Part shown: positions 20,012-46,088 of the stretch, in pieces
How the letters are laid out: the number at the start of each line of letters is the position of its first letter
Numbering within the stretch: the first letter of the stretch is position 1
Assembly: GCA_030998015.1 (NCBI GenBank)
Contig: JARWMV010000076.1
Coordinates: 1-64,000 of the forward strand
DNA length: 64,000 nucleotides
From: Ceratorhiza oryzae-sativae
Lineage: Eukaryota; Basidiomycota; Agaricomycetes; Cantharellales; Ceratobasidiaceae
Direction of reading: 5' to 3'
Notes under the pieces: generated by a model
What the model was told of the DNA's origin: nothing
The model's database searches: none
The model's input: the letters and a program-made list of their open reading frames with translations, nothing else
Made by a program: the position numbers and the translations under genes

Positions 20012-20013
20012 TC

Positions 20014-20028: not shown

Positions 20029-20332
20029 CAATTGTAAGTCTCAGTGTCATCTGGGATATGTTTGGAACGCCATCGGCGTCGTCTCAAGATAACTCCTCGT
20101 TGCCTTCCCCAATCCCACTCCACCTATCCACAGTCACAAGATATCGTTGCCCTATACGCGCCTCTGTGAAACCTTGCATAGCCAGGTCCCTCACACGTCG
20201 TAACAAGCTTCGGTTCTCTAATCTCTTTCGTCAACAAGAGGTGGGGTCGCTCATTGCCCTTAAGTAGCTGAGCAACGGAGGTCACCTTCCTATTCCCATA
20301 GACTCGGGAAAGGGTCTATTTTTCCTTTTATC

Positions 20333-20918: not shown

Positions 20919-21296
20919 GAAACAGCTGAACCCCACGAGTACGCCTTCCCCGTCTTCTCAACGCCATCAGACCTTCCTCACCCTACCTTTCTAAGTGGCA
21001 CAGGCTCGCCAATTCAGGAAGAAACATCCCTTCCAGCAGCCCAAGCCAATCCTCCCCAAGGAGACACTCCTGTGGGATCAAACTAAATTGAAGAGGGTGG
21101 AGTGCCCATACCATTGCCAAGACACCAAAAGTTGGGACTTGGACGATACCTGGCTAAGGTTTGCAGGGGTCAGAAACTTCGAAATTTATAGACTTGTGCA
21201 GGGGAAAGAAATCCTATATTACCAAAACAATTCCCAATTCCCTGTACTTCCTTACCGTCTCCGTCGCCTTTAAAATTCTATCAAACCTTCTCTGAA

Positions 21297-22688: not shown

Positions 22689-25600
22689 GCTCAAACCATG
22701 CCAGGGGGGCGGTCTTGGGCGTTATGTTACAAAATGCGCATAATGAAAATAAAAATATGGAAATGGAATGTATGTCGTTAGGAAACCAATCACAACTACA
22801 ATTTTTCTTTCATGCATTCCCTCTGTGCATAACCCCCAAACACAAGTCTGCATATAACATGAAAAAATTCAACGGATGGGCCATGATTGACTCAGGGGCC
22901 ATGTCAGTATTTATACATGAAGATTTGGTTAAACAATACCGTATTCCTACTGTTGCCCTAAAAACACCCAAGAAACTAAGGGTAATCGATGGAAGGGAGA
23001 TAGACTCTGGGTCTGTGACCCACTATTGCACCTTTGAGCTGTGCATTCGAGAGCATCGAGAAATCCTCAGCGCCTATGTTGTGAACGTTGGAAAAAACAA
23101 TTTAGTCCTGGGCATGTCATGGCTCAAATTCCATAACCCCAACATTGATTGGGATGGAAAAGACATGAAGTTCGACTCACCAATATGCCTGAAGCATTGC
23201 ATCACAAAACCCTTGCACATGCGTGCAAATGAACCTAAGGAGCTTCAGCTGGACTCCCTAGACTCCCTCCCAACAAAATATAAAGAGTTCCAGAAAATAT
23301 TCGCCGAAGAAGACGACGTCCAACCACTACCACCCCATAGAAAGTGGGATATGGAAATAGATTTAAAACCAGATGCCAAGCCAAGACATGGTCCCATATA
23401 TAGTGTGGGTGTCAAGGAAGATGCAGAATTACGCAAAACCTTGGATCGCCAACTGAAAGCAGGGCATATCAGACCCTCAAGGTCACCAATGGCATCTCCA
23501 GTCATATTCGTCAAAAAAAAGAATGGGAAGCTGCGCATGTGCATCGACTACCGGCGGCTAAACGAAATGACCGTCTCCAATGTATACCCACTCCCACGCA
23601 TCAATGATATTGTGGAAACTTTGCGTGGGGCAAAGATATTTACCAAGTTCAACCTAAAGTGGGGTTTCAACCTCATACGAATTCGGGAAGGAGACGAATG
23701 GAAGGCTGCTTTCAAGACCAAATACAGGCTGTATGAGCCCCTAGTCATGCAATTTGGTCAAAAGAACGCACCGGGAACCTTCATGGCCATGATCCGAGAA
23801 GAATTCCAGGACATCAAGGGCATTTACGTTGTAATCTACATGGACGACATATTAGTATTCTCAAAGAACCAGGAAGAACACAATGAACACGTCAGAGAAG
23901 TCCTGCGCTGGCTTCAAAAGGCTGGTCTATACTGCGCCCTGGAGAAATGTGTTTTTGATGTCACTGAAGTGGACTACCTGGGAATAGTAGTGACTCCCCA
24001 GGGAATTAAAGTAGACCCAGCCAAGGTCGAAAAGGCTGTTGAATGGCCAACCCCCACCAACCCAACCAAAGTCCTGGAAGGATTGGGATTTGCAAATTGG
24101 TTGAGGCACTTCATAAAAGACTTTTCAAAAATCACAAGATGTCTTTATGAACTTGTCAAAAAGGACGTAAAATGGGAATGGACAGAAGAAAGGGATCAAG
24201 CATGGAATCTGCTGAAGCAGAAATTAAAAGAAGCCCCCCTCCTAATTCAGCCAGAGCCCAACAAACCATTCATTCTGGAAACCGACGCCTCAGGCTATGC
24301 CACAGGCGCGGTATTATTACAATACGGAGAGGACGGAATGCTCCACCCAATTTCCTATTACTCCAAGGCAATGGTCCCAGCAGAGAGAAACTACGATATT
24401 TACAACAAAGAAATGCTGGCAATTATCAAGGCCCTTAAACACTGGCGTCATTTGTTAGAAGGGGCCGAACACCCAGTAAACATTGTTTGTGACCACAAGA
24501 ATTTGGAGTATTGGAAGACAAATCGGCCACTGAACAGTCGGGTCACACGGTGGCATGAGTTCTTATCCAGGTTCGAATTCAAGATTTTATATGTTGAAGG
24601 GGCAAAGAATGGCAGGGCAGACATACTCTCTAGGCTGTCAAGACACATCCCTAAAGAGGGGGGTGAGAGCCAAGCTCTGCTTGCACAAAACCAATTTTTG
24701 GAATTAAAATCTCTGTGGTTACAAGCAATCACACCAGACCATGACCTGGAACAACTCATTAGGGACGCTATCCCAGGGGATGAGCACCTGTCAAAAGTGC
24801 TAAAAGCCCTAGAGGACAATGAGAAGGTCAAAGATTGGGAATGGGATGAAGGACTCTTACGACACAAGGGCAGAATCTACGTCCCAAATAACAAGGAACT
24901 TCGCAAACTGGTCATTGAAAGCTGTCACGATAGCCCAGCAGCAGGACACCCAGGACAGTTCAGAACATATGAGTTGTTAAATTGCAAATACACGTGGTTA
25001 TCAATGAAAAAATCAGTCAACGAATATGTCACACACTGCGAGTCATGCATCAGGAACAAGCACAGCAACCAAGTTCCCCCAGGGCTCTTAAACCCAATAC
25101 CTGCACCAGAAAAACCTTGGGAAGAAATTACCTACGATCTGATCACTGGGCTACCCTTGTCAGAAGGATTTGATGCCATATTTACAGTCGTCGATCGCCT
25201 GACAAAAATGGTCCACTTTATTCCATGTCAATCGGAAGCCAGTGCTATGGATTGCACCAACCTGTTCCTAACATATGTATGGAAACTCCACGGGTTACCA
25301 CAGAAAACAATCTCAGACCGTGGCCCCAACTTCGCATCCAAATTCTTAAGGCACTTATACAAACGACTGGATATAAAACCCTCCTACTCCACAGCATACC
25401 ACCCTCAGACAGATGGCCAGTCCGAACGAGCCAACCAAGTAGTGGAAGGGTACATCAGACTATGTATCAGACAGACAAGATGACTGGGTCGCGTCTTACC
25501 ATTAGCTGAATTTGCCTACAATAATGGTGTCAACGCCTCAACTGGCAAATCACCATTCTTTGCAAACTATGGTTTCCACCCAAGGCTAGCAGTTGGGGAC

Positions 25601-26212
25601 AGGGAGGAACCAGAACTCCCTTTAGCAGACAACCATGCAGAATGGCTCCAAAAGGGCCATGACGAACTTAGGGCAGCCCTGGAAATAGCAAACCAGAGAA
25701 TCAAGGAATACTATGACCAGAAGCATTGGACTCCTGAAGCAATTAAGGTTGGAGACAAAGTCTGGCTTGATACCAAAAACATACGGACACAGCAGGCCTC
25801 CAGGAAACTGGCCCACAAAAGAGTTGGACCATTCAAGGTGGTAGCACAACATGGCACACATGCCTACAAACTGGACCTACCGATAACCATGAAAATACAC
25901 CCAGTGTTTCATGTCTCACTCCTGACCAAATATAAGGACGACCCCTATGGCTGTCAGGTTCCCCCACCACCACCTGTGGTAACTCCTGAAGGGGAAGAAG
26001 AGTTCGAAGTGGAACAGATTATAAAGTCACGATACAACAAAAGATCTAACGTCTTCGAATACTATGTCAAGTGGCTTGGCTATGACGAGCAACAATGGTT
26101 GACCTATGACGACCTGGCGAATGCACCAGAACTCATTGCTGACTATGTCAAGTCGCACCCAAAGGCACCCCAGGACCCCCGTGCCTTGAAGGGGGGAAGT
26201 GTCATGAACTGA
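22685..26212 (+). pseudogene. pol of element B (protease-RT-RNase H-integrase-chromodomain), broken
   Basis: The frame is open for 932 codons to 25483. Visible are the aspartic protease (MIDSGAMSVF), reverse transcriptase with YMDDILVFS, RNase H (ILETDASGYATGAV) and the integrase zinc finger (HDSPAAGHPGQ...CESC). The integrase core follows, with YDLITGLP, SDRGPNF and QSERANQ. Just after this the frame stops at 25481-25483 where small compensating indels disturb a QDDW-like segment; the same frame then continues with RVLPLAEFAYNN to a C-terminal chromodomain (about 25990-26150, VKWLGYDEQQW) and ends at 26212. The motif A catalytic Asp of the RT also reads Asn (FNLKWG), so the enzyme is probably dead. 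Confidence 0.85.
26188..26199 (+). promoter_or_regulatory. polypurine tract of element B
   Basis: GAAGGGGGGAAG lies immediately before the 3' LTR, the usual place for second-strand priming. It overlaps the end of the pol frame. Confidence 0.7.
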
Positions 26213-26575
26213 CACGCATATATCCACTCTACAATATTTTCTCGATTTACTACATTTTATGAGATCAACTTCAAAACATACTTGCCTTTTATGGTATATC
26301 TGTGTCATGTGACTCAGGGAATGTTCTGGACCGGTAACCGAGATGTATTTCAACTCTGATGTGAAATTCCGCAGTTCCACAGTCGCTTCTACTGCTTCTA
26401 TCTCTTATCTGTCGTGACTCACTGTACAGACTTGTTTGTTATGATGTGGCTCATACCATGTATATAAACCAGGTCAAGTTCGCAGAGGATCCCTCAAGAA
26501 CTTGACCTCTTGTCGAATACAAGTTCTTTTACTTTCTCACTATTTTCCTCGTCGCCTGACTTGTCGTCGTCGACA
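26200..26575 (+). repeat. 3' LTR of element B
   Basis: 376 bp, ending GTCGACA, followed by the GGAAT target duplication. It keeps several CpG sites (GTCGCC, CGTCGACA) that are TpG or CpA in the 5' copy, and the reverse at other sites. Confidence 0.93.
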
Positions 26576-26580
26576 GGAAT

Positions 26581-26778
26581 ACCCAAACCAACAACATGGT
26601 AAGGATACCAAACAGTGAAAAGGACAGGCAAAGGAAAGAAGGACTCTGTATCAAATGCGGTAAATCAGGGCATGTCCTGAAGGAGTGCCAAGGCCAGTGG
26701 ACCTACGACAAAGCTAAGATACAAGGGAAGGCCAGCACACAAGTTGAGGAAGAAAGCAGCTCTGAGTTGGAAAACTAA
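26581..26778 (+). pseudogene. gag of A1, C-terminal part with zinc knuckle
   Basis: Continues the gag frame in phase from 19635 and ends at 26778. It carries the CCHC knuckle CIKCGKSGHVLKEC and an acidic tail ending SSELEN. In A2 the same region follows gag directly with no insertion. Confidence 0.85.
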
Positions 26779-26795
26779 TTGGTCCTACCACTTCC

Positions 26796-29700
26796 ATGTT
26801 GGAGGACCCCAATATAACCCCTACCGCAGATGTATGTTACCTCAAGAAGTCTAGTAATCAATCAATAATATACACTATGGTAGAGGGAATCATGGAACCA
26901 GCTAAGACGCTGATTGACTCAGGATCTTCAACCAACTTCATCGATAAGGCCTATTCAAGGGAAAAAGGGATTCCAACCACTCCCCTCAAACACAAGAAAT
27001 CAATTGTGGCCATTGATGGAAATGAAATCAAGGATGCCATAGAAGAAAGGGCAGAACTAAACATCAAAGTGGAAGGGAAGACACTAAAATGCTCCCTTTA
27101 TGTAATGACTCTAGGTGACACAGACATAGTCCTAGGGAAAGAATGGCTTGAAGAAGCAGAACCTATCATAGATCGGAAAGACCTTACCATCTCATACCCA
27201 GATGAAATCAAGGCAAGGGCAGCAAGTGAAAGCCTACAAATCCCAGAAGAATTTAGGGATTTTGAAGACCTATTTGGGGAAGAAGGTTTCCGAGAACTTC
27301 CACCCCGCCAAGGTAACCTAGACTTCAAAATGGACCTGATCGAGGGAGCGGAGCTGCCAAAGCCTGCAAAGAGGTACAGTATGTCACCAGCAGAAACAAA
27401 GGCGCTCAGGGAGTACCTAGAGGAGGAACTAAGAAACAGGAAAATAAGGCCCAGCCAGTCAGTTGTAGCTGCACCCTGTTTCTATGTGAACAAAGCAGAT
27501 GGAGGGCTTAGGTTGGTAGTCGACTACCATAAGATGAATGACATCACCAAGCCAGACAGGTTTCCACTTCCAATCCAAATAGAATTGATTGAGAGACTGA
27601 AGGATGCAACCATCTATTCAAAAATGGATGTTCGATGGGGGTTCAACAACATCAGAGTAAAAGAGGGAGACAAATGGAAAACAGCTTTCAGGACAGGAGA
27701 AGGCCAGTTTGAATGCTTGGTCATGCCATTCGGAGTAAAAGAAGGACCAAGAACCTTTACCAGGTTCATGATGGAAAAGTTCCATGACATAATAGACGAT
27801 TATGTGGTAATCTACATGGACAATGTACTAGTGTTTTCCAGAAACAGGGAAGAACACATACAACATGTCAGGGAAGTGTTAAGAAGAATGAGGGAAAACC
27901 ACCTCTTCCTCAAACCCCACAAGTGCCAGTTCTTTGTGAAGGAGGTAAGCTTCATTGGAATTGTCATATCCCCAGAAGGGATATTGATGGAAAAGGAAAA
28001 GGTAAAGGCAGTTCTAGAATGGCCAGAACCTAACACAGTAAAAGAAGTCCAAGCCTTCCTAGGCTTCGTGGGGTTCTATAGAAGGTGGATAGAGAAGTTT
28101 AGTACCTTAGCCAAACCCCTCACAGATCTCACCCAAAAAGATGTCAAATTCCTGTGGGAAAGAAAACAACAGGAAGCATTTGAAGCTATCAAGGAAGCAG
28201 TAGCAAGAGAACCGGTCCTGATCCACCCAAACCCAAACAGGCCATACATACTGGAAACAGATGCCTCAGGAGTGGCCATGGGGGCAGTACTAAGCCAAAA
28301 GGGTGATGACAACCGATTGCATCCAATTGCCTTCCTATCGAAGAGCTTCACCCCACCAGAGAAAAATTATGACACCTACAACAAGGAGTTGCTTGCAATT
28401 GTTAGGTCCTTAGAGCACTGGAGGTTATACTTAGAAGGGACAGAGGAACCTATTGTGATATACACTGACCATAGGAACCTCCAGTACTGGCAAAATGCCC
28501 AGATGTGGAATAGAAGGCATGCCAGATGGTATCTCACTCTGGCACCCTTCAATTTTCAGATTGTGTATAGACCAGGGAAACTCTCACAGAAGCCAGATGC
28601 CCTTTCCAGAAGGAGCGACCATGGGGATACCCCTATGGAACCACAGATCATGATTCCAGAAGAAAGGTTCATAGGTTTCATGGCAGAAGTACAGGGGAAT
28701 TTCTGGGAAGAGCTTAAAGAAGCTCAGGAAGAAGACGAATCTATCAGATCCTTAAGGCTGAGCATGGCAAATAAAGAACAACTACCGCCCTCAGTACAGA
28801 AGGAATTTAGACAGTATGAAATGAAGGAGGGCCTATTAAGGTATGACGATAGGCTCTACATCCCGGATGACAAGGACTTGAGGTTGAGTCTCCTTGAGGA
28901 GTGCCATGATGCCCCAGTGGCAGGTCATCAGGGACAAGCCCGAACACTAGAATTACTATCAAGGGATTACTATTGGCCAGGAATGAAGGCCCAAATAAAC
29001 CGATACGTGGAATCTTGTGAAACATGTCAAAGAAGCAAAGGACACAAACAAGGCACTCCCCTGAAGTCCTTACCAATCCCATGGAAACCATGGGCAGATG
29101 TCGCATATGATTTCATTGTCAAATTACCCATCTCAAAAGGGTACAACAGTATCTTGACAGTTGTAGATCGCTTCTCCCGGCAGGCCCATTTTGTACCATG
29201 TCTGGAGAGCACCAATGCAGAAGAACTGGCAGAAATATTCATAAGGGAAGTATGGAGACATCACAGGACCCCAGAAACCACTGTCTCAGACCAAGGGCCA
29301 ACCTTTAACAGCCAATTCCTAAAAGACCTATACAAAGGAATTGGGACAAAGCCCAGATTCTCGACTGCTTTCCATCCAGAAACAGATGGTCTGTCGGAAA
29401 GGACAAATCAATGGGTAGAAGGGTTCTTAAGAACCTTCTGCAATTATAGACAAGATGATTGGGTAAAATGGTTACCCATTGCTGAATTCTGCCACAACAA
29501 CCACGTAAATGCTACAACAGGACAAACCCCATTTGAAACAGTATATGGAAAAAACCCAAGATGGGTTGTCCGAGAGGGAGAAGAACCATCTGAGGCACCT
29601 GCTGCAGACAACATGCGTAATCAAATGGAAAAGGTATGGGATGAGGCAAGAGCCTCAATGGAATTACACCAACAAATGGAAAAGAAAGGGAGGGAATTCA

Positions 29701-30209
29701 AGGTAGGAGACAAGGTTTGGCTGCTCCTAACAAACCTCTTGTCCAAGAGACCCTCCAAGAAACTGGACAACCGAAAAGGGGGGCCCTTTGAAATCACAGA
29801 AAAGATCTCATCCCATGCATATCGCCTGGACTTACCTAAAACCATACGTGTACACAATGTATTCCATGTAAATCTCCTCTCGCCATTCACAGAAGATAAA
29901 GACTTCCGAAGAAGGCAGGCCAAACCACCACCAATCATAACGGAAAAAGGAGAGGAGGAATACAAGGTGGACCACATTGCAAATTATGAATGGCGGAATG
30001 GCGAGCTGTTTTACCAAATCAGATGGAAGGGCTACAACCCAATAGAAGACACAATGGAATGTGCCAGCAAGTTTGCTGACATGAAAGAGGTTCTAAATGA
30101 CTTGCAAAGGTGCTTACCAGACGCACCAATGCCAGTCAAGACAAGTCAGCACTCAGGTGACTCGAAAGGCAGGCCAAAGAGAACCAAACGAGGATCTGGA
30201 AAGCTTTAA
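26796..30209 (+). CDS. pol polyprotein of A1 with chromodomain
   Basis: 1137 residues, one uninterrupted frame starting 17 bp after the gag stop, in another frame. Domains in order: aspartic protease (LIDSGSSTNFID, about residue 40), reverse transcriptase (RLVVDYHKMND to YMDNVLVFS, about 240-350), RNase H (ILETDASGVAMGAV, about 485), integrase zinc finger (HDAPVAGHQGQ...CETCQRSK, about 705-750), integrase core (YDFIVKLP, SDQGPTF, LSERTNQ) and a C-terminal chromodomain (about 1050-1100, IRWKGYNPIEDT). The second Asp of the RT YxDD box reads Asn (AAT at 27822-27824), which would normally abolish polymerisation. A2 carries the same base. Replication in trans or a dead but amplified family are both possible. 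Confidence 0.9.
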   Translation: MLEDPNITPTADVCYLKKSSNQSIIYTMVEGIMEPAKTLIDSGSSTNFIDKAYSREKGIPTTPLKHKKSIVAIDGNEIKDAIEERAELNIKVEGKTLKCSLYVMTLGDTDIVLGKEWLEEAEPIIDRKDLTISYPDEIKARAASESLQIPEEFRDFEDLFGEEGFRELPPRQGNLDFKMDLIEGAELPKPAKRYSMSPAETKALREYLEEELRNRKIRPSQSVVAAPCFYVNKADGGLRLVVDYHKMNDITKPDRFPLPIQIELIERLKDATIYSKMDVRWGFNNIRVKEGDKWKTAFRTGEGQFECLVMPFGVKEGPRTFTRFMMEKFHDIIDDYVVIYMDNVLVFSRNREEHIQHVREVLRRMRENHLFLKPHKCQFFVKEVSFIGIVISPEGILMEKEKVKAVLEWPEPNTVKEVQAFLGFVGFYRRWIEKFSTLAKPLTDLTQKDVKFLWERKQQEAFEAIKEAVAREPVLIHPNPNRPYILETDASGVAMGAVLSQKGDDNRLHPIAFLSKSFTPPEKNYDTYNKELLAIVRSLEHWRLYLEGTEEPIVIYTDHRNLQYWQNAQMWNRRHARWYLTLAPFNFQIVYRPGKLSQKPDALSRRSDHGDTPMEPQIMIPEERFIGFMAEVQGNFWEELKEAQEEDESIRSLRLSMANKEQLPPSVQKEFRQYEMKEGLLRYDDRLYIPDDKDLRLSLLEECHDAPVAGHQGQARTLELLSRDYYWPGMKAQINRYVESCETCQRSKGHKQGTPLKSLPIPWKPWADVAYDFIVKLPISKGYNSILTVVDRFSRQAHFVPCLESTNAEELAEIFIREVWRHHRTPETTVSDQGPTFNSQFLKDLYKGIGTKPRFSTAFHPETDGLSERTNQWVEGFLRTFCNYRQDDWVKWLPIAEFCHNNHVNATTGQTPFETVYGKNPRWVVREGEEPSEAPAADNMRNQMEKVWDEARASMELHQQMEKKGREFKVGDKVWLLLTNLLSKRPSKKLDNRKGGPFEITEKISSHAYRLDLPKTIRVHNVFHVNLLSPFTEDKDFRRRQAKPPPIITEKGEEEYKVDHIANYEWRNGELFYQIRWKGYNPIEDTMECASKFADMKEVLNDLQRCLPDAPMPVKTSQHSGDSKGRPKRTKRGSGKL

Positions 30210-30297
30210 AAAGGAGCCATCCAGGATACCCAAGAAAGGCCAAAGCCCGCTCTACCACCTCACTTGCACCACAACACACCTGCGAAACCCCAAAAAC

Positions 30298-31119
30298 ATG
30301 CCTTTTGTCACTCACCCAGTTGCACATCCCAACCATTACACCCCACTTGCTGAAAATCAGGTGGCCCCACTTTGGCAGCCACCCACCACCAGGCGGCCAG
30401 CACCCTACCCTGGCAGGGAAAATCGTCCTAAACCAGGGATGTACTGCTCCAGTGTGGAAGACGCCCAGAGGTATGCCGAACGACTGTTGCCAGGGGCTAA
30501 CCTAGTGTACATCCCAAAGAAGTTAAGGGATGAAAGGAACTGGATTGACAATGACAAGTACCTGGATCCCAGGTTAGGGGTCCTGACATGGCATGGAAGC
30601 CGGAAGCCAACAACAAGAAATGCCTTGTTAAGAACACCGATGTATGTTGTCGACAATATTGTGGGACCAACAGTCGACGTGGTGACCAAGGCAGCAAGAC
30701 AACAGAGGAGGGCCACAGGCCAAATGGCAGACGGAGGGGACTGGGAGGTGGAGCGCTGGGCAAAGGCATTGCTGGAAGAATGGAAGTTGACACCAGCTGC
30801 ACCGTATGTGGGACTGCTCAAAGCAACTACCACTGATGAGATGTTTACTGCTATCAGGACGAAGCAGGCAAACATGAGTGACTTCCAAAATTGGGTGAAG
30901 GTGCACCCAAACAAAAACACCAATTACAACACTGATATGACAAGCCTTACATCAAGCCTAGAATCACTGGTTGTGGCTGAGGAAGAAGCCAAGCCAGAAA
31001 TAAAGGAACCCACCCTGGACCCAGCTGTGGAAGAAGCCAAACAGGACTGGGACCGGTGGGAAAACAAGCTTGTCAAAGCTCTGGAGGAGGTGCCACTGTT
31101 GGAATCAAACCCCATATGA
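30298..31119 (+). CDS. accessory protein of element A1, 273 residues, unrecognised
   Basis: Starts at the Met of MPFVTHPVAHPNHYTPLAEN, 88 bp after the pol stop. The first 50 residues are Pro-rich (WQPPTTRRPAPYPGRENRPK). The middle is basic and mixed (ANLVYIPKKLRDERNW, LLRTPMYVVDNIVGP, KAARQQRRATGQM). The C-terminus is acidic and helical (VVAEEEAKPEIKEPTLDPAVEEAKQ shortened here to its two ends). There is no transmembrane segment or known motif. A2 has a copy of identical length (822 bp) with two stop codons and no frameshift. Position before the Rep module would suit a particle or DNA-binding protein, but that is a guess. Confidence 0.7.
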   Translation: MPFVTHPVAHPNHYTPLAENQVAPLWQPPTTRRPAPYPGRENRPKPGMYCSSVEDAQRYAERLLPGANLVYIPKKLRDERNWIDNDKYLDPRLGVLTWHGSRKPTTRNALLRTPMYVVDNIVGPTVDVVTKAARQQRRATGQMADGGDWEVERWAKALLEEWKLTPAAPYVGLLKATTTDEMFTAIRTKQANMSDFQNWVKVHPNKNTNYNTDMTSLTSSLESLVVAEEEAKPEIKEPTLDPAVEEAKQDWDRWENKLVKALEEVPLLESNPI

Positions 31120-31200
31120 CCACTTTGCCTCCCACAAATTGTCTCCCAAATGTATAAGAGTTTTATTTTCTTTCACACACCAAACTTAATACATTTCCTT

Positions 31201-31742
31201 TTACTCTCTATTTTTACGTTTGCCCTTGAGGGGCTGGGTATAGGGCTTCTTGCCCCTTTTATCCTTCTTATTGGTCTGAACAACTGACCGGGTAGTGGGC
31301 TGCAGCCAAGGAGCCTCCCCCCCTGGGAAGTCGGCCATGTAGTTCTGGAAACACCCAGAACCAGACGCTGCAAAGGGTGAAGCCTCATCAAACAAGGGAG
31401 CAGAGCCCTCCTCAAAGAATTCAGCAAGAGCAGCCTGGTGAGACTGCTCCTCAAAGGACTTGTAGTCCTGATCAATGAACACCCAGACACGCTCAAGGGT
31501 GGCCTCATGGGCCTGACCATCAAGGAGGATGCGCTCTTCTACAGAACAAGTTAGCTACGTGAGAACAATGAAGAACGAACACACATACCTGGCACCCCAC
31601 AGAAGAACCAGTCCCCAACACCTTGATAGAAGTCTTCAAGGGAGGCGTCGCACACAGCATCACAGTAGGCGCAGTACTCCCCCTCAGGGAGAGACCAGCA
31701 GGTGCAGTCAAGGGGATTGTAGTTCAGGGAAATAACATGCAT
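31201..31742 (-). CDS. spliced antisense accessory protein of A1, 163 residues
   Basis: Exon 1 is 31589-31742 and exon 2 is 31201-31538, with a 50-bp intron (GTATGT donor, CTAAC branch site, TGTAG acceptor). The joined frame is 492 nt. The N-terminus is Cys-rich (LDCTCW, GEYCAYCDAVCD, FFCGVP). The middle is helical and the C-terminus strongly basic (NKKDKRGKKPYTQ, KGKRKNRE). A2 preserves the intron, splice sites and frame, giving 160 residues, which argues for a real gene. Its 3' end faces that of the 273-residue gene across 81 bp, and its 5' end faces Rep. The Cys cluster plus basic tail suggests nucleic-acid binding; the function is unknown. Confidence 0.72.
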
Positions 31743-32484
31743 AGTAAAGACAGGATGAGGAAGGAAAACAACAAAACCACAAACATTAAAAAATCACGGT
31801 GCAACACAATAACTTGCACAAACATCAAAACAAGGTCTGGTCAGGTGACACCAACAGACACGTGACCATCTGCCAGAAAACAAACAACAAAGCGTAGGAA
31901 TCACATGACCTAGCCTAGTCATGTGAATATACGCTATCCCCTAACTACCGGAGGGGTTGGAGAGGGGGCACTGACCAAAGTGGGGGAGTGGAGGCCCTGA
32001 GTGTAGCGAGGATCAAGGCCGATGCGGAGGAACAGATGGGAGGGCACCCCTCAGAGATGCGTCACAAGGGAAAGACATACAAGGACAAGCAAGAAAACAA
32101 ACAAGTCACGTGACACAAAGTGAACATGTGTCCCAAGCAGACGAAGAAAAACAACAAGGTCATGTGACCCAGACAATGTCACATGATATGGCTGCTATCC
32201 CCTGAACTACCGGAGGGGTCGGAGAGGGGGCACTGACCAGAGTGGAGGAGCGGAGGCCCTGAGCGCAGCAAGGTTTAAGGCTGCCACGGGGGAACAGATG
32301 GAAGGGCACCCCTCAGAGATGCGTCATCACTGAAATAAGGTCATGTGATCACAACAAATGCAAGACAGAGTCATGTGACGATCAAAACAGACCTTGCAGC
32401 TTATATAGACAAGCACAAGGCCTGAGATAACCTGCACTCTCATGCTCTCTTCCCAGTCCCCAAATACCTCTAAAACTGTAAACG
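31743..32484. promoter_or_regulatory. divergent intergenic region with iterated palindromes and 134-bp direct repeats
   Basis: It separates the minus-strand gene from Rep. Octamers of form TCACRTGA or TCATGTGA occur at 31901, 31919, 32106, 32160, 32179, 32341 and 32371, plus a near match at 31858. A direct repeat occupies 31933-32066 and 32194-32328. Each unit starts with a possible hairpin CCCCT-(9 or 10 nt)-AGGGG and ends CAGAGATGCGTCA. A TATA box, TATATAG, is at 32402-32408, 83 bp before the Rep start. The same octamer occurs in the LTR repeats. Confidence 0.6.
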
Positions 32485-33771
32485 ATGCTAAGCGGAAATG
32501 GATCGAACATGGCAACACCCCAGCCAAGTGGATCAAGCGAAGGGCAGAGGTCAGCGTCGCCATCGCCAGCGCCCTTGGTATCAAGCCAAGCCCCCTTGCC
32601 CACTTCTATGTGGCCTATGCTGATGGATCAAGGGTCCGAAGAGCTGACCAAAACCGTGCCGGCCCCTCAGTTCCACGTCCAGACCAGGGCGGTGCTGCTA
32701 ACCTGGTCGAAGCTACGCGATCAGCCCTCAAGTGGGCTTGTCGCCCAATACGAGGCGTTCTGCTGCCAACGGCCAAATCATTGGGTGACTTTGGCGGTGG
32801 TGGAACGCCACAACCCCAAGGAACCGAACTACAACCTGGCCCAGCCCCTCCATGTCCACGCCCTCTCCATCAGTCAGGAGCGGAAGGGTGGCTGGAACAC
32901 CCAGAACACCCGGTTCTGGGACTTCGAAGGGCAACACCCCAACATCCTGCCAAAGGACCTCAAGGACAGACCAGGAGGCAACCCTGCAAGGGAGGCTTTC
33001 AACTACCTCTGGAAGGATGTTGGAGCTAATGGCGAGGAGGTAGAGGAGCTGATGGTGGGGGACCTGACCTTGGAAAGGTTGGAGGAAATCCTGGTGAAGG
33101 GGAAGGGCAGGAAAAGGTTGAGGGCAGAGGTGGAGCTGGAGGATGGGGCAGAGATTGTTGCCTTGGCGACAAAAAAAGAATACTACCAGGCATTCAAGCA
33201 CCTGCGCCCCCTCCAGATGGTGACGACGTGGAACTCGGTACAAGCATATGCTGAGTACACATATAAGGAGGACTGGGGATGCATGCCTGCAATCCCGGTG
33301 GAGTTGGAAGTCCCAGAAGACTGGGCGCACATCAACAGGGCAGACCAATGGTTTGTGGAAGAGGCTGAGAAGAGAGGGAGGGGTGTGCGCCATTGCATCC
33401 TGGTGATTGAAGGCAAAACAGGAACTGGGAAGACGGCGTATGCGCGATCCAAGGGCTCCCATAGCTGGATGTGCAATGTCTGGAACGTGGGGAATCTGTC
33501 GGAGGATGCCAACATCTGGATCCTGGATGACATGGTCCAGTCAAACGGGAAGTACTCGCTCAAAGCCCTGAGCCAGTACGAGGCAGACTTCACAGGCAGA
33601 TATGCTCATGTGAAGTCAATGAAGGTACGGCCAACGGTGATCCTGGGGAATAGCTGGTCGGCCATAATGAAGTGTTGGACAGACATAGAGGGGGAAGAAG
33701 GGGACTTATGGGTATCCAAAAACGTAGACTGGGTATACTCAGGAGGGAAGCCATTTTTTGTTTTTCCTTAA
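32485..33771 (+). CDS. rep: CRESS-DNA Rep-like protein (HUH endonuclease + SF3 helicase), intact
   Basis: 428 residues. A Ser/Pro-rich N-terminus (1-60) precedes an HUH domain: motif I LLTWSKL (71-77), motif II HVHAL (123-127), a GRS-like segment FWDFEGQHPNI (145-153) and motif III YLWKD (174-178) with the presumed nicking Tyr174. An SF3 helicase follows: Walker A GKTGTGKT (310-317), Walker B IWILDD (344-349) and motif C VILGNS (385-390). This order and the GRS-like piece are those of geminivirus-like Rep proteins, which nick and unwind circular DNA for rolling-circle replication. All key residues are present. It has its own TATA box and an AATAAA signal 10-20 bp after the stop. It lies in the sense direction of the retrotransposon, and A2 has a decayed copy of exactly the same length. 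Whether it acts on element DNA is unknown. Confidence 0.9.
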   Translation: MLSGNGSNMATPQPSGSSEGQRSASPSPAPLVSSQAPLPTSMWPMLMDQGSEELTKTVPAPQFHVQTRAVLLTWSKLRDQPSSGLVAQYEAFCCQRPNHWVTLAVVERHNPKEPNYNLAQPLHVHALSISQERKGGWNTQNTRFWDFEGQHPNILPKDLKDRPGGNPAREAFNYLWKDVGANGEEVEELMVGDLTLERLEEILVKGKGRKRLRAEVELEDGAEIVALATKKEYYQAFKHLRPLQMVTTWNSVQAYAEYTYKEDWGCMPAIPVELEVPEDWAHINRADQWFVEEAEKRGRGVRHCILVIEGKTGTGKTAYARSKGSHSWMCNVWNVGNLSEDANIWILDDMVQSNGKYSLKALSQYEADFTGRYAHVKSMKVRPTVILGNSWSAIMKCWTDIEGEEGDLWVSKNVDWVYSGGKPFFVFP

Positions 33772-33868
33772 AAAAATAAAAATAATAAATATCTTTGTAT
33801 AAGCTGTTTTATTCACAGACCATGTGTCGAGAAGTAAGCTTAAACAAGGAAATAAGCAAGGAGATAGT

Positions 33869-33995
33869 AATCTCATGTAGCGTAGAGGTTAAGGGGTCTA
33901 GCCTGACTCATCATCCCCTAGCTGAGCAATTACACATTGAACGGAAGGTTGTTGGTTCGAGTCCAGCGCCTTTAACCTCCTTGATATATGAGATA
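33869..33995 (+). ncRNA. tRNA-like structure upstream of the polypurine tract (A1)
   Basis: A box-like TAGCGTAGAGG (33878-33888) and an exact B box GGTTCGAGTCC (33954-33964) set in a good T arm (GTTGG, 7-nt loop, CCAGC). Outer stems AATCTCATG/ATGAGAT and GAGGTTAAGG/CCTTTAACCTC close the fold. The arms do not add up to a normal tRNA because extra bases lie between the T arm and the outer stem. Present in both copies of family A and followed by AAAGGGGGGGATAA and the 3' LTR. Confidence 0.5.
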
Positions 33996-34071
33996 CCTTT
34001 TAGAAACTTTTAGAACCCAGAAAAGAAACATGCCTCGAGATCCCCCAAGACATGTCCAAAGGGGGGGATAA

Positions 34072-34651
34072 TGTTATGACCCGCCTAGCAGACATAACCT
34101 AACAACCGAATATTGTACAGATTTATGGCATTTTTCCCGAAGCGGAACAAACCATAAACGAGATCATGTGATCTTGGGCGCTTACCCAACGATTAAGCGC
34201 TGGTGGTTACCCTGAACTTGCTCCAGTGTTTCTCTCCCATGTTACTTGGAGCGAGGAGCGAGTTGTCACGTGACCTCGGTGCTTACTCAGCGATCAAGCG
34301 CCAGGTGCTTAAAGTCCAAAAGTCACATGACCCTTGGACCTTGCGCGGCTCTATAAGATTCGGAGCTGCACAAACTTAGGATAAACGATTACCTAAGACC
34401 TAGTACTATATAGAACCTATAACTGCTGTAGACAGCGCTTAGGAAAGGGGGGCCACCACAGCAACTGCAGTCACATGTATATAAGGGGAGTAAAGCAAGA
34501 CTGAACGCCTCAGCTTGCTTTATCTTGTCAACCACCATAGACCATAGCAAACACTGTAACTAGAACACTCAATACATACTGCATAGCACCAAACCATCAA
34601 CGCAGCCACTACTTAAGTGCTCCACAAGGGAGCCTCCAGAGGGTCATGACA
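34072..34651 (+). repeat. 3' LTR of A1
   Basis: TGTTATGACC to GGTCATGACA. The polypurine tract CCAAAGGGGGGGATAA abuts it. It has two 101-bp-type repeat units against four in the 5' LTR. Confidence 0.85.
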
Positions 34652-34746: not shown

Positions 34747-36195
34747 TGTTATGGATCACTAACATTCTTTTATTATTTTAGTCTGCTCTGCCAACCTCAA
34801 GCGATGCCTCTGTAATTAATTTGTGAAATACTTGAATTTGTATGCACTCCAAATTGTACTATTTTGTGTTCCATTAAATAGTACAAATTTCCCGCTTTCC
34901 AACACATATTTTATTAAGTTTTTAAAATAAGATCTCAGAGAGATACAGAGGTTGCAATATTTCCTCTTATCAAGAGATATTGATTATAACATTGCACTGC
35001 CCATATCTCTGCAACCGCTTACTCTATCAAAGCGATCTTATCCTCTATCGATAGCTAATCTTCGGCAGTATCTGCTGCCCAAAGATCGTTGCGATCCACC
35101 AGATCCCTGCACCGGAATGGCCCAAAGATCATTAGAATCTTACTGGACCATCAATCAAGATCTAATGACTCCAGTGAGTCAGGAGAGCTTCCCAAATTGA
35201 TCCAGAAGCTTCTCTGACTCACTTTATGACTCACTGAGATGTAGCCTCCATTCATGACATGTATATACTATGATAATATGATTTACAAGCCAATAGCAGG
35301 TCTCAGATGCATCAATGCCTTTGATCCACACCCTGTCTTTACTCTCTTATCCTATACTGGGCTAGGGTGTACCCCAAGTATAGCAGTACCCTCTTTTGAT
35401 GATTACACTGGCATGCATGTATCTATTTGGCTCTGGAACACCCTCCTCAGGGTATAAAAGGACCTCCTCTGAGGCCCTTCCAGACCACCTTCACTACTCT
35501 ACTCAACCCAGACTGGTTATTGGTTTCCTTTTTCTCTTTCTATTTCTCTTGTCTGTGTGATTTCTTATATAACTAGTACTGAGGAATAAAGTACCATATT
35601 AGTTATATACTGTCTGATTCATTGTATCTTATATACAGAGTTATATAAGGATACAATATTGCCTGATTGAGCATGACATTAAGTACCAGCTATTAGAGGA
35701 AATCTAAGTACCTGTAGCTGAGGAAGTACACACATTAGGCAGCCCACCATCTATCCTATAAGCTATTGCTTAAGTCTAGTATCAAGATTAGTATCAGTTA
35801 GTCCAAGCAACTAGGGCTGAACTACATTTAAGATATCTAAGGGAAGCTGACCATAGTAGTCTTGCTCTTTATACCTATAAATTAGTCAGTTTACACTGTG
35901 AAAGATTAAGACTACCTTGAGTGTTACTTGATTGCATTGCAACTACTTTGAGCCTTCTTACTCTAGTCTAAGAAGTATTGAGTACAATTAGTGTATACTA
36001 ACATATCTACATTTGCTTAAGCTCTAGATATTCAAGTTAAGGATGTGATGCTGATATTCTGGCATTCTGGCATCAAGGGTAACTCAATTACAGAAGCACT
36101 GATTTATAAGCTGATGCAATTGAGTTACCCTTGATGCCAGAATGCCAGAATATCAGCATCACATCCTTAATTCAAGTGTACCCTGACCTGTAACA
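34747..36195 (+). repeat. family C LTR, third copy, with nested foldback element
   Basis: TGTTATGGATC...GACCTGTAACA, 1449 bp including the 134-bp insertion at 36037. The TATA box TATAAAAGG is at 35452. It has no obvious target duplication and no interior beside it. It carries the 82-residue open frame at 34952-35200 (MQYFLLSRDIDYNIA...VSQESFPN). Confidence 0.75.
36037..36170. mobile_element. MITE with perfect 53-bp inverted repeats
   Basis: Starts TTAAGGATGTGATGCTGATA and ends with the exact complement; arms of 53 bp surround a 28-bp loop. A 6-bp duplication TTCAAG flanks it (36031-36036 and 36171-36176). The other family C LTRs lack it. Perfect arms mean it is young or still mobilised. Confidence 0.9.
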
Positions 36196-36872
36196 ATGTG
36201 CACAACATTATGAGGATTCCAGGCTGTACTACTCACAATATAGTTTTGAGGATTATTTGAGCCAGAGCTGTACAGTGGTTGGTGCACATAGGTACCATGA
36301 GACCTGGTAGAGTTGCTAGTTGTAGTGTTTTTGAAGTTGAATGGAGGAATATGAGGATGAGTAGGGCACCAATACCCAGAACCACAGTAACAACCAACTA
36401 CCATGATATCAATAAATATGCCTGATCCATAGAGTCAAGGGCTCTTGTTAAAGATGTCATGCCAGAAAAATGCAGGAAACCACCACCTGCATCCAGATTC
36501 TGGCACAAAATCACCATTCTTGCTCCTCCTCTGGCTCCAGATGCCAGAAGGGCAGAATCTGGCTGGAATCTGGCATGTGCCAGAATGACAGAATTCTGTC
36601 ATTTGCCAGAATGCCAGAATGGCAGTACAGTGGTATGGCTGTATGGCTGTATGGTGGAATGCAGGAATGCCAGAATTGTGCAGCAACAAGCTCCAAATGA
36701 CTGAGACCAGCTATCACAAAGATTTAATCATTTTCCAGCCTTGGAATCACCACAAACTCCTTCAACTGAACCTTAAGCAGACAGATGTTAGTCAATATGA
36801 TTGGATTATAACCTTGAGATAAATCAAGAGTAGTATGATATTCACATCAAGCACACTACACACATACACTAT
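36196..36872. repeat. noncoding DNA with clustered CCAGAAT/ATTCTGG motifs
   Basis: Between 36460 and 36690 the heptamer CCAGAAT or close variants occurs many times (e.g. GCCAGAATGCCAGAATGGCAG), with a short GTATGGCT repeat. The same heptamer forms the ends of both foldback elements and recurs at 53273-53450. I see no gene. Confidence 0.5.
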
Positions 36873-37386
36873 TGTTATGACCTGTCAAACAGACATAACA
36901 GAGTAACTGAATATTTTACAGATTTATGGCATTTTTCCTAAGCAGAACAAGCCATAAACAAGGTCACATGATCTTGGTGCTTATGGTGGTTACCCTGAAC
37001 TTGCTCCAGCATTTCTCTACCTTGTTACCTGGAGCAAGGAGTGAGTTGTCACATGACCTCAGTGCTTACCCCTTGGACCTCATGCAGCTCTATAAGATTT
37101 GGAGCTGCACAAACTTAAGATGAACAATTACCTAACCCATGGTACTATATATAACCCATACCTACTGCAGATTGTGCTTAAATAATACATCCACAGCCAC
37201 CACAGCCACAGGTGTATATAGGGAGGATGTAGCAAGACTGGATGCCTCAGCTTGCTTTATCTTGTCAACCACCATAGACCATAGCAAACACTGTAACTAG
37301 AACACTCAATACATACTGCATAGCACCAAACTGTCAATGCAGCCACTACTTAAGTGCTCACAAGGAGCCTCCAGAGGGTCACAACA
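36873..37386 (+). repeat. 5' LTR of A2
   Basis: TGTTATGACC to GGTCACAACA, 514 bp, lacking the tandem 101-bp units. It is followed by the same self-priming site ATAAAGCAAGCT (37389-37400) as in A1. Confidence 0.9.
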
Positions 37387-37509
37387 TTATAAAGCAAGCT
37401 CTTAACTTAACTAGTGGCGAACATAAGTATACTACACAGATACTAAGGGCTGAGTACACAAGAAACCAGCTAACTCCTGTGATACATCAGAGAACACAAA
37501 AAAAAAACT

Positions 37510-39312
37510 ATGTCACAGAGACCACAAACTCAATCTTAAAGCAGAGTGGCAAATAGTAGGCCACAATCACCCAAACCTGCTTCCCCAGAGGCTGAAGGTA
37601 ACCCAGATGAGACCCTCCAAGGAATGCCAGGGGGGTTGCCACAAAACCCACAACCAGTGCTCAACCCAACCCCACTCGGGCCCCCATCCTGGGAGGGAAA
37701 TAGGGGGAATACCACTCTGCAGCCCTCAACTGCCAATTCACCTGATAAATCCAGACCCAGAAGATATCTCAAATCCAGAGAGGGATGAGGTAGAAGATAT
37801 GACCCGAACCATATACGAACAAGGCACGGCCTTGGCGAAGAGGCAAGGACACAACCCCAGCCAGGTCCCGGAACCATAGCCACTGCCAACCCTATTCACA
37901 CCATTGCCACGCCATCAGGGCGGGCTCAAGGAACTTAGAGACAATAACATAGGGAACTAGAAAAGGCAATCACAGGTATAAATCAGTGTCAAATATCACT
38001 AACCCACAAGAAGGAAATGGACTGGATGGTAAGGTCAATGGAAACATCCAACAAAAATGTCCTCTATGTGGCAAAGAACCAGGACACCTAAAAGCAGAAA
38101 TGGGGAACCTGATAAAAGAATTAAAGGACATCTCCATGGAAATAAACTGGGTACTGGGAATGCAAGAGCAAAGCTTGAAAGCTTAGAGAAGAAAACTGAA
38201 AACACAGGGGAGATCCTAATCGCACTAGAACAAGGGTAACCATCTAGGAAATGAGCTCCAGAAAACAACTGAAGCAGGAAGGCCAAGGGAAAGGACAGAA
38301 GAAACCAGGGGAAGAACTAGGGTGGTCATAGGAAGCCCCTCACGATCCCCCTCAGCCTCCCCAGTACGAACACCCTTTCTGGGAAGAACCTTCCAGGCTG
38401 AGTCCACAATAAGACCCTGAACAGAACCTCCATCCCAAGCAAACCAACCTACCCTTGCTGCAAACCACACTCCTAAGGAGGCAACTAGGGAGACCCAGCA
38501 AATTTAATGGGAAAAAGGGGAAGGAAGCAGAGAACTTCATAATCAGCATGGAACTTTTCTTTGCTGACTATGGAATCAGCCTTTGACCGAAAAAAGATAT
38601 CTGCTGTGTAATGAACATGGAGGAGGGGAAGCAGCAAACTGGGCACAACCTTACTGCCGAAACTACTAGCAGGCGAACACACAGGTATTCTTGCATCCTG
38701 GAAGGATTTCAGGAAGGGATTCCTGGATGCTTTTAATGACCCAGTCATAAAGGAAAAGACCATCCAAACTAAGGAAATTAACACAACCAAGAGTGCATTG
38801 GATTATGCTACCCAATTCCAGATCCTGATCCAAGAGGTAGACTGGAACCAGGAAGCCCTCAAGGACCAATTCAGGGAAGGGTTAAAACCCGAAGTACACA
38901 AGAGATCTTAAGGATTGAAGTACTGGCAAATGAGGCTGAAGGTCCATCATATACCTTAGATCAATTAATCACTTTGCCTGCAAAATGGATGACATGCAGT
39001 TTGCAAACCAGAAAATGAATGCAAGGACCAGCAACTCATCAAATTCAACCTGGGCACCAGCAAATACAAACAAGGGGGAACAAGCCTTTAGGGACCAGCA
39101 GCAAACAGGGGAATACCCAAACCAACAACATGGTAAGGATACCAAACAGTGAAAAGGACAGGCGAAGGAAAGAAGGACTCTGTATCAAATGTGGTAAATC
39201 AGGGCATGTCCTGAAGGAGTGCCAAGGCCAGTGGACCTATGACAAAGCTAAGATACAAGGGAAGGCCAGCAGACAAGTTGAGGAAGAAAGCAGCTCTGAG
39301 TCAGAAAACTAA
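37510..39312 (+). pseudogene. gag of A2, multiply frameshifted
   Basis: Homologous throughout to A1 gag, from the same ATGTCACAGAGACC start to the CIKCGKSGHVLKEC knuckle and the SSESEN tail. More than ten one- or two-base deletions and some stops break it into short pieces. It cannot make Gag. Confidence 0.88.
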
Positions 39313-39329
39313 TTGGTCCTACCACTTCC

Positions 39330-42300
39330 ATGTTGGAGGACCCCAATATAACCCCTACTGCAGATGTATGTTACCTCAAGAAGTCTAGTAATCAATCAAT
39401 AATATACACTACGGTAGAGGGAATCATGGAACCAGCAAAGATGCTGATTGACTCAGGATCTTCAACCAACTTCATCGATAAGGCCTATTCAAGGGAAAAG
39501 GGATTCCCCACTCCCCTCAAACACAAGAAATCAATTGTGGCCATTGATGGAAATGAAATCAAGGATGCCATAGAAGAAAGGGCAGAACTAAACATCGAAG
39601 TGGAAGGGAAGACACTAAATGCTCCCTTTATGTAATGACCCTAGGTGACACAGACATAGTCCTAGGGAAAGAATGGCTTGAAGAAGCAGAACCTATCATA
39701 GATTGGAAAGACCTTACCATCTCATACCCAGACAAATCAAGGCAAGGGCAGCAAGTGAAAGCCTACAAATCCCAGAAGAATTTAGGGATTTTGAAGACCT
39801 ATTTGGGGAAGAAGGTTTCCAGAACTTCCACCCCACCGAGGTAACCTAGACTTCAAAATGGACCTGATCGAGGGAGCAGAGCTGCCAAAGCCTGCAAAGA
39901 GGTACAGTATGTTGCCAGCAGAAACAAAGGCTCAGGGAGTACCTAGAGGAGGAACTAAGAAACAGGAAAAATAAGGCCCAGCCAGTCAGTTGTAGCTGCA
40001 CCCTGTTTCTATGTGAACAAAGCAGATGGAGGGCTTAGGTTGGTAGTCGACTACCGTAAGATGAATGACATCACCAAGCCAGACAGGTTTCCACTTCCAA
40101 TCCAAATAGAATTGATTGAGAGACTGAAGGACAACCATCTATTCAAAAATGGATGTTCGATGGGGGTTCAACAACATCAGGGTAAAAGAGGGAGACAATG
40201 GAAAACAGCTTTCAGGACAGGAGAAGGCCAGTTTGAATGCTTGGTCATGCCATTCAGTAAAGAAGGACCAAGAACCTTTACCAGGTTCATGATGGAAAAG
40301 TTCTGTCAAATAGATGATTATGTGGTAATCTACATGGACATGTACTAGTGTTTTCCAGAAACAGGGAAGAACACATACAACATGTCAGGGAAGTGTTAAG
40401 AAGAATGAGGGAAAACCACCTCTTCCTCAAACCACACAAGTGTCAGTTCTTTGTGAAGGAGGTAAGCTTCATTGGAATTGTCATATCCCCAGAAGGGATA
40501 TCGATGGAAAAGGAAAAGGTAAAGGCAGTTCTAGAATGGCCAGAACCTAACACAGTAAAAGAAGTCCAAGCCTTCCTAGGCTTCGTGGGGTTCTATAGAA
40601 GGTGGATAGAGAAGTTTAGCCTTAGCCAAACCCCTCACAGATCTCACCAAAAAGATGTCAAATTCCTGTGGGAAAGAAAACAACAGGAAGCATTTGAAGC
40701 TATCAAAGAAGCAGTAGCAAGAGAACCGGTCCTAATCCACCCAAACCCAAACAGCCATACATACTGGAAACAGACCCTCAGGAGTGGCCATGGGGGCAGT
40801 ACTAAGCCAAAAGGGTGATGACAACCGATTGCATCCAATTGCCTTCCTATCAAAGCTTCACCCCACCAGAGAAAAATTATGACACCTACAACAAGGAGTT
40901 GCTTGCAATTGTTAGGTCCTTAGAGCACTGGAGGTTATACTTAGGGACAGAGGAACCTATTGTGATATACACTGACCATAGGAACCTCCAGTACTGGCAA
41001 AATGCCCAGATGTGGAATAGAAGGCATGCCAGATGGTATCTCACTCTGGCACCCTTCAATTTTCAGATTGTGTATAGACCAGGGAAACTCTCACAGAAGC
41101 CAGATGCCCTTTCCAGAAGGAGGACCATGGGGATACCCCTATGGAACCACAGATCATGATTCCAGAAGAAAGGTTCATAGGTTTCATGGCAGAAGTACAG
41201 GGGAATTTCTGGGAAGAGCTTAAAGAAGCTCAGGAAGAAGACGAATCTATCAGATCCTTAAGGCTGAGCATGGCAAATAAAGAACAACTACCGCCCTCAG
41301 TACAGAAGGAATTTAGACTATGAAATGAAGGAGGGCCTATTAAGGTATGACATAGGCTCTACATCCCAGATGACAAGGACTTGAGGTTGAGTCTCCTTGA
41401 GGAGTGCCATGATGCCCCAGTGGCAGGTCATCAGGGACAAGCCCGAACACTAGAATTACTATCAAGGGATTACTATTGGCCAGGAATGAAGGCCCAAGTA
41501 AACCGATATGTGGAATCTTGTGAAACATGTCAAAGAAGCAAAGGACACAAACAAGGCACTCCCCTGAAGTCCTTACCAATCCCATGGAAACCATGGGCAG
41601 ATGTCGCATATGATTTCATTGTCAAATTACCTGTCTCAAAGGGGTACACAGTCTTGACAGTTGTAGATCGCTTCTCCTGCAGGCCCATTTTGTACCATGT
41701 CTGGAGAGCACCAATGCAGAAGAACTGGCAGAAATATTCATAAGGGAGTATGGAGACATCACGGGACCCCAGAAACCACTGTCTCAGACCAGGGCCAACC
41801 TTTAACAGCCAATTCCTAAAAGCCCTATACAAAGGAATTGGGACAAAGCCCAGATTCTCCACTGCTTTCCATCCAGAAACAGATGGTCTGTCGGAAAGGA
41901 CAAATCAATGGGTAGAAGGGTTCTTAAGAACCTTCTGCAATTATAGACAAGATGATTGGGTAAAATGGTTACCCATTGCTGAATTCTGCCACAACAACCA
42001 TGTAAATGCTACAACAGGACAAACCCCATTTGAAACAGTATATGGAAAAAACCCAAGATGGGTTGTCCAAGGGGGAGAAGAACTATCCAAGGCACCCACT
42101 GCAGACAACATGTGTAATCAAATGGAAAAGGTATGCAATGAGGCAAGAGCCTCCATGGAATTACACCAACAAATGGAAAAGAAAGGGAAGGAATTCAAGG
42201 TAGGGGACAAGGTTTGGCTGCTCCTAACAAACCTCTTGTCCAAGAGACCTTCCAAGAAATTGGACAACCAAAAAGGGGGCCCTTTTGAAATCACAGAAAA

Positions 42301-42649
42301 GATCTTGTCCCATGCATATCACCTGAACCTACCTAAAGCCATACATGTACACAATGTATTCCATATAAATCTCCTCTCACCATTCACAGAAGATAAGGAC
42401 TTCCAAAGAAGGCAGGCCAAACCACCACCAATCATAACAGAAGGAGAGGAGGAGTATGAGGTGGACCACATTGCAAATTATGAATGGCGGAATGGCAAAC
42501 TGTTTTACCAAATCAGGTGGAAGGGCTACAACCCAATAGAAGACACAATGGAACGTGCCAGCAAGTTTGCTGACATGAAAGAGGTCCTAAATGACTTGCA
42601 AAGGCAATTACCAGATGCACCAATGCCAGTCAAGACAAGTCAGCACTGA
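39330..42649 (+). pseudogene. pol of A2, frameshifted in the first three quarters
   Basis: Protease, RT, RNase H, integrase and chromodomain are all recognisable in order but shift frame repeatedly. The RT box loses a base at the codon where A1 reads Asn. From 41750 to 42649 one frame of 299 codons is open (integrase core end GLSERTNQ to the chromodomain), with only an in-frame 3-bp loss. Confidence 0.88.
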
Positions 42650-42789
42650 GGTAACTCAAAAGGCAGGCCAAAGAGAACCAAACAAGGACCTGGAAAGCTT
42701 TAAAAAGAGCCATCCAGGATACCTAAGAAAGGCCAGAGCCTGCTCTACCACCTCACTTGCACCACAATACACCTGCAAAACCCCAAAAC

Positions 42790-43611: not shown

Positions 43612-43690
43612 CCACTTTGCCTCCCATGGATTTTTTCTCAAATGTATAAGAGTTTTATTTTTACATATCAAACCTAATACATTTTACTCT

Positions 43691-45971: not shown

Positions 45972-46088
45972 AATAATTTACTGTATTGTACAACTTCTGC
46001 TATGCCCATCCAAACAGTTGGGGCATTCTGAGAAGAAGCAGACAACTCCTCACCCCTGAATAACCTCCACAACAAAGAAAAGAAAAAC

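Follow-up and report, generated by a model that had tools for sequence, protein, structure and literature searches.

A very divergent Rep gene resident in a Ty3/gypsy long terminal repeat (LTR) retrotransposon family of Ceratorhiza oryzae-sativae

The stretch of DNA considered here (hereafter the window) comprises 64,000 nucleotides from the basidiomycete Ceratorhiza oryzae-sativae (contig JARWMV010000076.1, positions 1 to 64,000 of the forward strand); it is part of the contig that we call C76, and the genome searched for further copies amounts to 48.8 Mb in 253 contigs. The window holds two copies, A1 and A2, of a mobile element that is a Ty3/gypsy LTR retrotransposon by its LTRs, target duplications, gag-pol order and polypurine tract. 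A1 spans 17097-34651 and reads, in order, 5′ LTR, gag (split by a nested element, B), pol, orf273, a spacer, Rep, polypurine tract and 3′ LTR; all features of A1 and A2 given below lie on the plus strand. Rep (32485-33771) is an open reading frame (ORF) of 428 residues without internal stop, whose HUH and SF3 motifs stand in the order expected for an HUH-SF3 Rep, as the initial annotation had described; it is followed by the polypurine tract (34058-34071) and the 580-bp 3′ LTR (34072-34651). A2 spans 36873-46796 with the same gene order, and its 5′ LTR (36873-37386) and 3′ LTR (46281-46796) are bracketed by the target duplication ACTAT (36868-36872 and 46797-46801). The initial annotation correctly placed the same gene, at the same length, inside these LTRs and this duplication (44685-45971; 78% identical to the A1 protein in an alignment that covers all 428 residues), but the A2 copy is not intact, as it contains two TGA stops.

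The Rep gene is not confined to the window. A tblastn search of the genome with Rep returned at least 99 matches, corresponding to at least 98 places on 64 contigs, a lower bound that reflects the scoring of 98 out of 251 candidates. Of the 98 places, 70 have the reverse transcriptase (RT) of the A1 family no more than 25 kb away, 68 of these 70 on the same strand, and at 47 places it is found 4.2-5.6 kb upstream on the same strand. The 30 loci that were fetched, on 28 contigs, are the best-scoring of the 98 places and therefore biased towards intact copies; in all of them a polypurine tract follows 229-302 bp past Rep, then a 3′ LTR, and the DNA beyond the LTR differs from locus to locus. Perfect 5-bp target duplications flank all three elements outside the window that were chosen for full length, so that, with A2 possessing and A1 lacking one, four of the five elements checked carry such a duplication. 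Remnants of Rep genes have been recorded in fungal genomes, according to the part of PMC3198968 consulted, and an integrated single-stranded DNA (ssDNA) virus or plasmid, or a misassembly, could in principle have placed a Rep beside LTRs by chance. This explanation is refuted by the constant Rep-tract-LTR spacing with differing flanks at 30 of 30 loci and by target duplications that enclose Rep, and we give it practically no credence.

The converse count, starting from RT, leads to the same association. Among 116 RT matches, a listed Rep follows within 14 kb in 66 and not in the other 50; of these 50, 19 were probed, and 16 hold Rep sequence in its place, usually frameshifted. Of the other three, two are broken by B-like insertions and one stops about 0.9 kb short of Rep. 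Also among the 50 are two copies of a diverged family, and both have Rep. The initial annotation had named, as the pattern that would speak against it, related elements that lack the module while Rep occurs elsewhere; what was found instead are Rep remnants, or copies interrupted or ended before Rep. Rep is linked to the A1 family in nearly every copy examined, and it is almost certainly a resident gene of this retrotransposon family, seated between pol and the 3′ LTR.

The association is also old. The two copies of the diverged family, whose RT is 66-67% identical to that of A1, keep the order pol, orf273, Rep, with about 38-42% identity in orf273 and 68-70% in Rep over residues 86-428. The association of Rep with the element is older than the split of the two subfamilies to which A1 and A2 belong and of this third, diverged family, and the earlier proposal that the module predates the multiplication of the family is strongly supported by the number of places (at least 98), by the tract and LTR at every fetched locus, by the diverged family and by the target duplications. 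In the diverged family a predicted intron of about 60 nt (GTAAGC...TAG), placed by eye between motifs I and II, splits the Rep frames (L035 5895-5970; L036, reverse strand, same region). No such interruption is seen in the A1 family, and an insertion is present at this position in two metagenome proteins (P0025 and P0047); a loss of the intron in the A1 family would fit passage through a spliced RNA. Database searches returned first 49, then 78 protein relatives of Rep, and every one with a named organism comes from Ceratobasidium (AG-Ba, 394, 395, 414, 428 and UAMH 11750), known here as proteins alone, the rest being metagenome or other proteins. Identity to Rep in these other Ceratobasidium genomes is 63-72%.

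Codon-based comparisons indicate that Rep is under purifying selection. Between A1 and A2 the rate of nonsynonymous substitution (dN) is 0.114 and that of synonymous substitution (dS) 0.686, a dN/dS of 0.17. The median pairwise value is 0.35 among 29 of the 30 fetched copies (one of different length was left out), and is raised because copies decay after insertion; by region, the 29 copies yield 0.75 for the N-terminal tail, 0.42 for the HUH part, 0.17 for the linker and 0.27 for the helicase. These values bear on the idea that Rep is a passenger, captured once and copied along without a role for the element. Many copies are indeed broken, only 29 of the 99 matches being full-length and free of internal stops, and other LTR elements bear extra ORFs of unclear role, as far as the available portions of PMC7264820 and PMC5408684 describe them. 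A passenger would not, however, be expected to display a dN/dS of 0.17 between subfamilies, nor to persist in a diverged family and in other Ceratobasidium genomes, where identity is 63-72%, which makes this explanation quite improbable.

The motifs of A1 Rep comprise motif I (VLLTWSKL, residues 68-78, 32686-32718), motif II with its H-x-H (LHVHAL, residues 120-130, 32842-32874), a GRS-like segment (RFWDFEGQHPNI, residues 142-156, 32908-32952), motif III with the putative nicking tyrosine (YLWKD, residues 169-180, 32989-33024), Walker A (GKTGTGKT, residues 307-322, 33403-33450), Walker B (WILDD, residues 342-353, 33508-33543) and motif C (ILGN, residues 382-392, 33628-33660). All seven patterns occur in 12 of the 30 database relatives of at least 360 residues. 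A family profile was built from 26 hand-picked proteins out of 50; Pfam Gemini_AL1_M was detected in nine of these 26 (best E 0.001) and Gemini_AL1 in one (E 0.23), matches so weak that sequence search alone is a poor basis for assigning the protein. As a yardstick served the geminivirus-type Reps of phytoplasma plasmids, a single accepted set for which nine of 33 plasmid records were used, and the first of which matches PF00799 at 3.7e-20 and solved geminivirus Rep structures by sequence. Aligned with hhalign against these nine Reps, the family matched over residues 61-350 with a probability of 91.5 and a score of 55.6, compared with a maximum of 21.9 in 30 column shuffles and 19.3 for the reversed profile. 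The HUH part alone scored 37.4 (at most 15.8 in 40 shuffles) and the helicase part 33.9 (at most 18.8 in 40 shuffles), while crossed pairs of HUH and helicase parts gave no hhalign match. The profile comparisons thus support the view that Rep is a very divergent family related to geminivirus-type plasmid Reps in both domains. The label "geminivirus-like" of the initial annotation holds in the sense of this profile match, but has to be read with the divergence in mind, since no Pfam Rep model came over its cut-off when ten members were scored singly.

Other searches added little to this assignment. Single-sequence and profile searches of PDB sequences with Rep found nothing beyond one chance row, and fold searches with two structure models of low confidence (mean predicted local distance difference test, pLDDT, 32.4 and 48.0) returned weak, unrelated matches only. 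In IMG/VR, 12 pattern matches to the family profile were obtained and none was confirmed, and a degenerate Walker A pattern had no match; a tblastn search of plasmids with Rep gave two rows, both due to chance. The Gemini_AL1 model found no match in the genome, a silence that is not proof of absence, and the two rows obtained with Gemini_AL1_M fell below threshold and had no relation to the listed Rep places.

A resident, selected gene of this type invites the question of what it does for an element that is copied through RNA; the initial annotation had suggested either replication of circular cDNA or nicking in aid of integration. LTR elements commonly give rise to LTR circles as by-products, and after reverse transcription part of the element's cDNA may likewise be circularised. 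Rep would then bind a site in U3, perhaps a 39-nt hairpin, and nick it via the motif III tyrosine; its helicase domain would unwind the DNA, and a host polymerase would make more element DNA that is able to integrate. That Rep nicks the circular cDNA of its own element and copies it in rolling-circle mode is, judged from sequence, a reading to which we assign slightly less than an even chance. The fuller proposal, a hybrid replicon in which RNA copying is combined with Rep amplification of circular cDNA at the LTR hairpin, so that each reverse transcription would yield many integrable copies, is more speculative and we regard it as rather unlikely.

The hairpin recurs in one to four units per U3, with three in the A1 5′ LTR (17241-17279, 17342-17380 and 17443-17481), each a candidate Rep site. 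Of 91 units, between 80 and 91 retain any given one of the ten stem pairs and 87 retain TGTTAC in the loop, a set that includes a few double counts due to the overlap of loci L003 and L031. This unit is perhaps the site of Rep, and is put forward as a candidate and nothing further. Several observations weigh against a rolling-circle role. On the protein side, 18 of the 30 database relatives of at least 360 residues lack at least one of the seven motifs (many of them are probably decayed or misannotated), no Pfam Rep model scores over its cut-off and neither structure model gives a usable fold. On the DNA side, the canonical nonanucleotide (TAATATTAC or NANTATTAC) is absent from A1 and A2, as is any stem-loop with a TAATATTAC-like nonanucleotide, the hallmark of geminiviruses and genomoviruses; in the diverged family three stem pairs of the LTR hairpin are mismatched, and the hairpin may be no more than a palindrome of the promoter. 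Nor do the 98 Rep places include head-to-tail arrays at unit spacing: only two same-strand Rep pairs lie within 20 kb of each other, 12,200 and 3,940 bp apart, whereas a rolling-circle unit would measure about 9-10 kb.

A different use of the same U3 repeats is conceivable. Rep could be a resident DNA-binding regulator or silencing suppressor that binds them and tunes transcription or counters host methylation; geminivirus Reps repress their own promoter and affect host methylation, and the repeated hairpin units adjoin the Rep gene. All 16 internal stops in the 29 copies are TGA, which suggests C-to-T decay and, by extension, an element that faces methylation-type silencing. A pure regulator has no need of catalytic residues, however, and the H-x-H, the motif III tyrosine and the DD of Walker B are kept in 29 of 29 copies, which points to catalysis. 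We consider the regulatory explanation unlikely, if far from negligible. HUH enzymes are able to cut single strands and to join them, and Rep nicking might instead aid integration or the processing of linear cDNA ends without any replication of circles; the lack of the tandem arrays that replication would leave is in its favour. The element already encodes, however, a complete integrase with SH3-like and chromodomain regions, the 5-bp duplications in four of five elements are ordinary and as integrase alone would give, and the helicase domain of Rep would be superfluous for such a task, so that a role in integration appears improbable.

A comparison of A1 with A2 bears on the relation of Rep to its presumed site. 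Identity is high in gag (97.6%), from pol to orf273 (96.2%) and in R-U5 (92.9%), and low in Rep (81.8%), in the stretch 3′ of Rep (64.7%) and in U3 (81.3%). In reverse transcription the 3′ end of the RNA is the template for U3 and the 5′ end that for R-U5, and low identity in Rep and U3 combined with high identity in R-U5 is the pattern left by a template switch 5′ of Rep between two packaged RNAs. U3 and Rep, adjacent at the 3′ end, would have shifted jointly in this recombination, in keeping with an enzyme that moves as a pair with its target site.

Among known systems, the closest by overall build are the Tf1/sushi chromoviruses, which share with the element LTRs, 5-bp duplications, gag-pol, a Tf2-1-like SH3 region, a chromodomain and a self-priming-type site, and from which it differs by the addition of orf273 and Rep between pol and the 3′ LTR; the placement in this subgroup rests on domains and predicted priming. 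In the protein the HUH motifs, the GRS-like segment and the SF3 motifs follow one another as they do in the geminivirus-type Reps of geminiviruses, genomoviruses and phytoplasma plasmids, and it has a profile match with the nine phytoplasma plasmid Reps. Unlike them, it is very divergent and borne by an LTR retrotransposon; no capsid gene was recognised, and no canonical nonanucleotide was found in A1 or A2. Helitrons and Helentrons likewise are eukaryotic mobile elements with a Rep and a helicase. In Helitrons the Rep is fused to an SF1 helicase, and LTR, gag and RT are all absent; a Helitron can be ruled out here, where a separate 428-residue Rep lies inside LTRs without a RepHel fusion.

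Rep genes in other mobile elements provide precedents of a kind. The available part of PMC3198968 describes a terminal inverted repeat (TIR) transposon of the truffle Tuber melanosporum that bears a geminivirus-like Rep, likewise multiplied in a fungal mobile element. That element is a DNA transposon with 37-bp TIRs, transposase ORFs and an interrupted Rep (PMC3198968), in contrast to the RNA-copied LTR element described here with its intact Rep copies. In bdelloid rotifers, Terminons (giant Penelope-like retroelements) are reverse-transcriptase elements with an accessory Rep, and in the section of the review concerned its authors consider that this Rep may point to circular intermediates (PMC6431247), a suggestion that we count for rolling-circle copying by the present Rep. 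Terminons possess a Penelope-like RT, are telomeric and lack LTR retrotransposon structure (PMC6431247), and the likeness noted here concerns the presence of a Rep. LTR elements with extra ORFs are known, and the portions of PMC5408684 and PMC7264820 available name no Rep among them; nor did any LTR retrotransposon with a Rep appear among the entries listed from an open-licence library, subscription papers and Repbase being outside this scope.

Retroelements and rolling-circle DNA replicons are usually regarded as separate replication strategies, and here an LTR retrotransposon has long possessed, in many copies and under selection, an initiator gene of the ssDNA virus type. Should Rep work as proposed, retrotransposon cDNA could be amplified at the DNA level, which no textbook life cycle includes, and replication modules would have been exchanged between ssDNA viruses and LTR elements. 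With many copies, intact ORFs and culturable relatives (Ceratobasidium), the family offers a simple system in which these ideas can be tested.

The remaining parts of A1 are those of a Ty3/gypsy element, with Pfam domains in the order gag, then protease-RT-RNase H-integrase. The gag ORF (Retrotrans_gag, Ty3_capsid; 17998-19635) is split by element B, and the pol ORF (1137 residues, 26796-30209) encodes protease, RT, RNase H, integrase, a Tf2-1-like SH3 region and a chromodomain; the chromodomain model PF00385 scores 27.1 bits in the A2 ORF, over the cut-off of 25.1, and 20.5 bits, below it, in A1. The 5′ LTR (780 bp, 17097-17876) has the ends TGTTATGACC...GGTCACAACA and contains tandem units of about 101 bp. 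Its predicted RNA 5′ end, AGCTTGCTTTAT (17737-17748), lies 34 nt past a TATA-like box, and just inside the LTR the predicted primer-binding site ATAAAGCAAGCT (17879-17890) is its perfect 12-nt complement, which predicts self-priming, presumably of the Tf1/sushi type. Tandem U3 units of about 100 bp vary in copy number among elements and between the two LTRs of A1, which differ in length (780 and 580 bp) although both would be expected to be identical at the start. No target duplication was found for A1, the 5-mers flanking its LTRs being different.

Between pol and Rep lies orf273 (273 residues, 30298-31119), whose ATG is the start coordinate 30298 of the initial annotation. Its position is conserved in eight of eight elements compared and it evolves faster than Rep; it had no database relatives on search and no Pfam family over cut-off, and the A2 copy (42790-43596) is 89% identical with two stops. 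The spacer that follows (31120-32484) has no long ORF, and A1/A2 identity falls across it; tandem repeats of about 136 bp (31938-32335) stand just 5′ of Rep, where this fall occurs.

Nested in A1 is the Ty3 element B (19636-26575), with the duplication GGAAT, LTRs at 19636-20011 and about 26200-26575, and gag and pol ORFs. Its pol is 40% identical to that of A1, and no Rep match was found in it, which indicates that the Rep gene is not general to Ty3 elements in this genome. B-like insertions also break A-family copies on contigs C15 and C6. Elsewhere in the window, a large inverted repeat (4847-8444) has arms that are 99-100% identical and enclose about 1 kb, further copies lying near the window start (182-1004), and another dispersed repeat family is present in three copies (9320-10606, 13588-14908 and 34768-36037), the last of which lies between A1 and A2.

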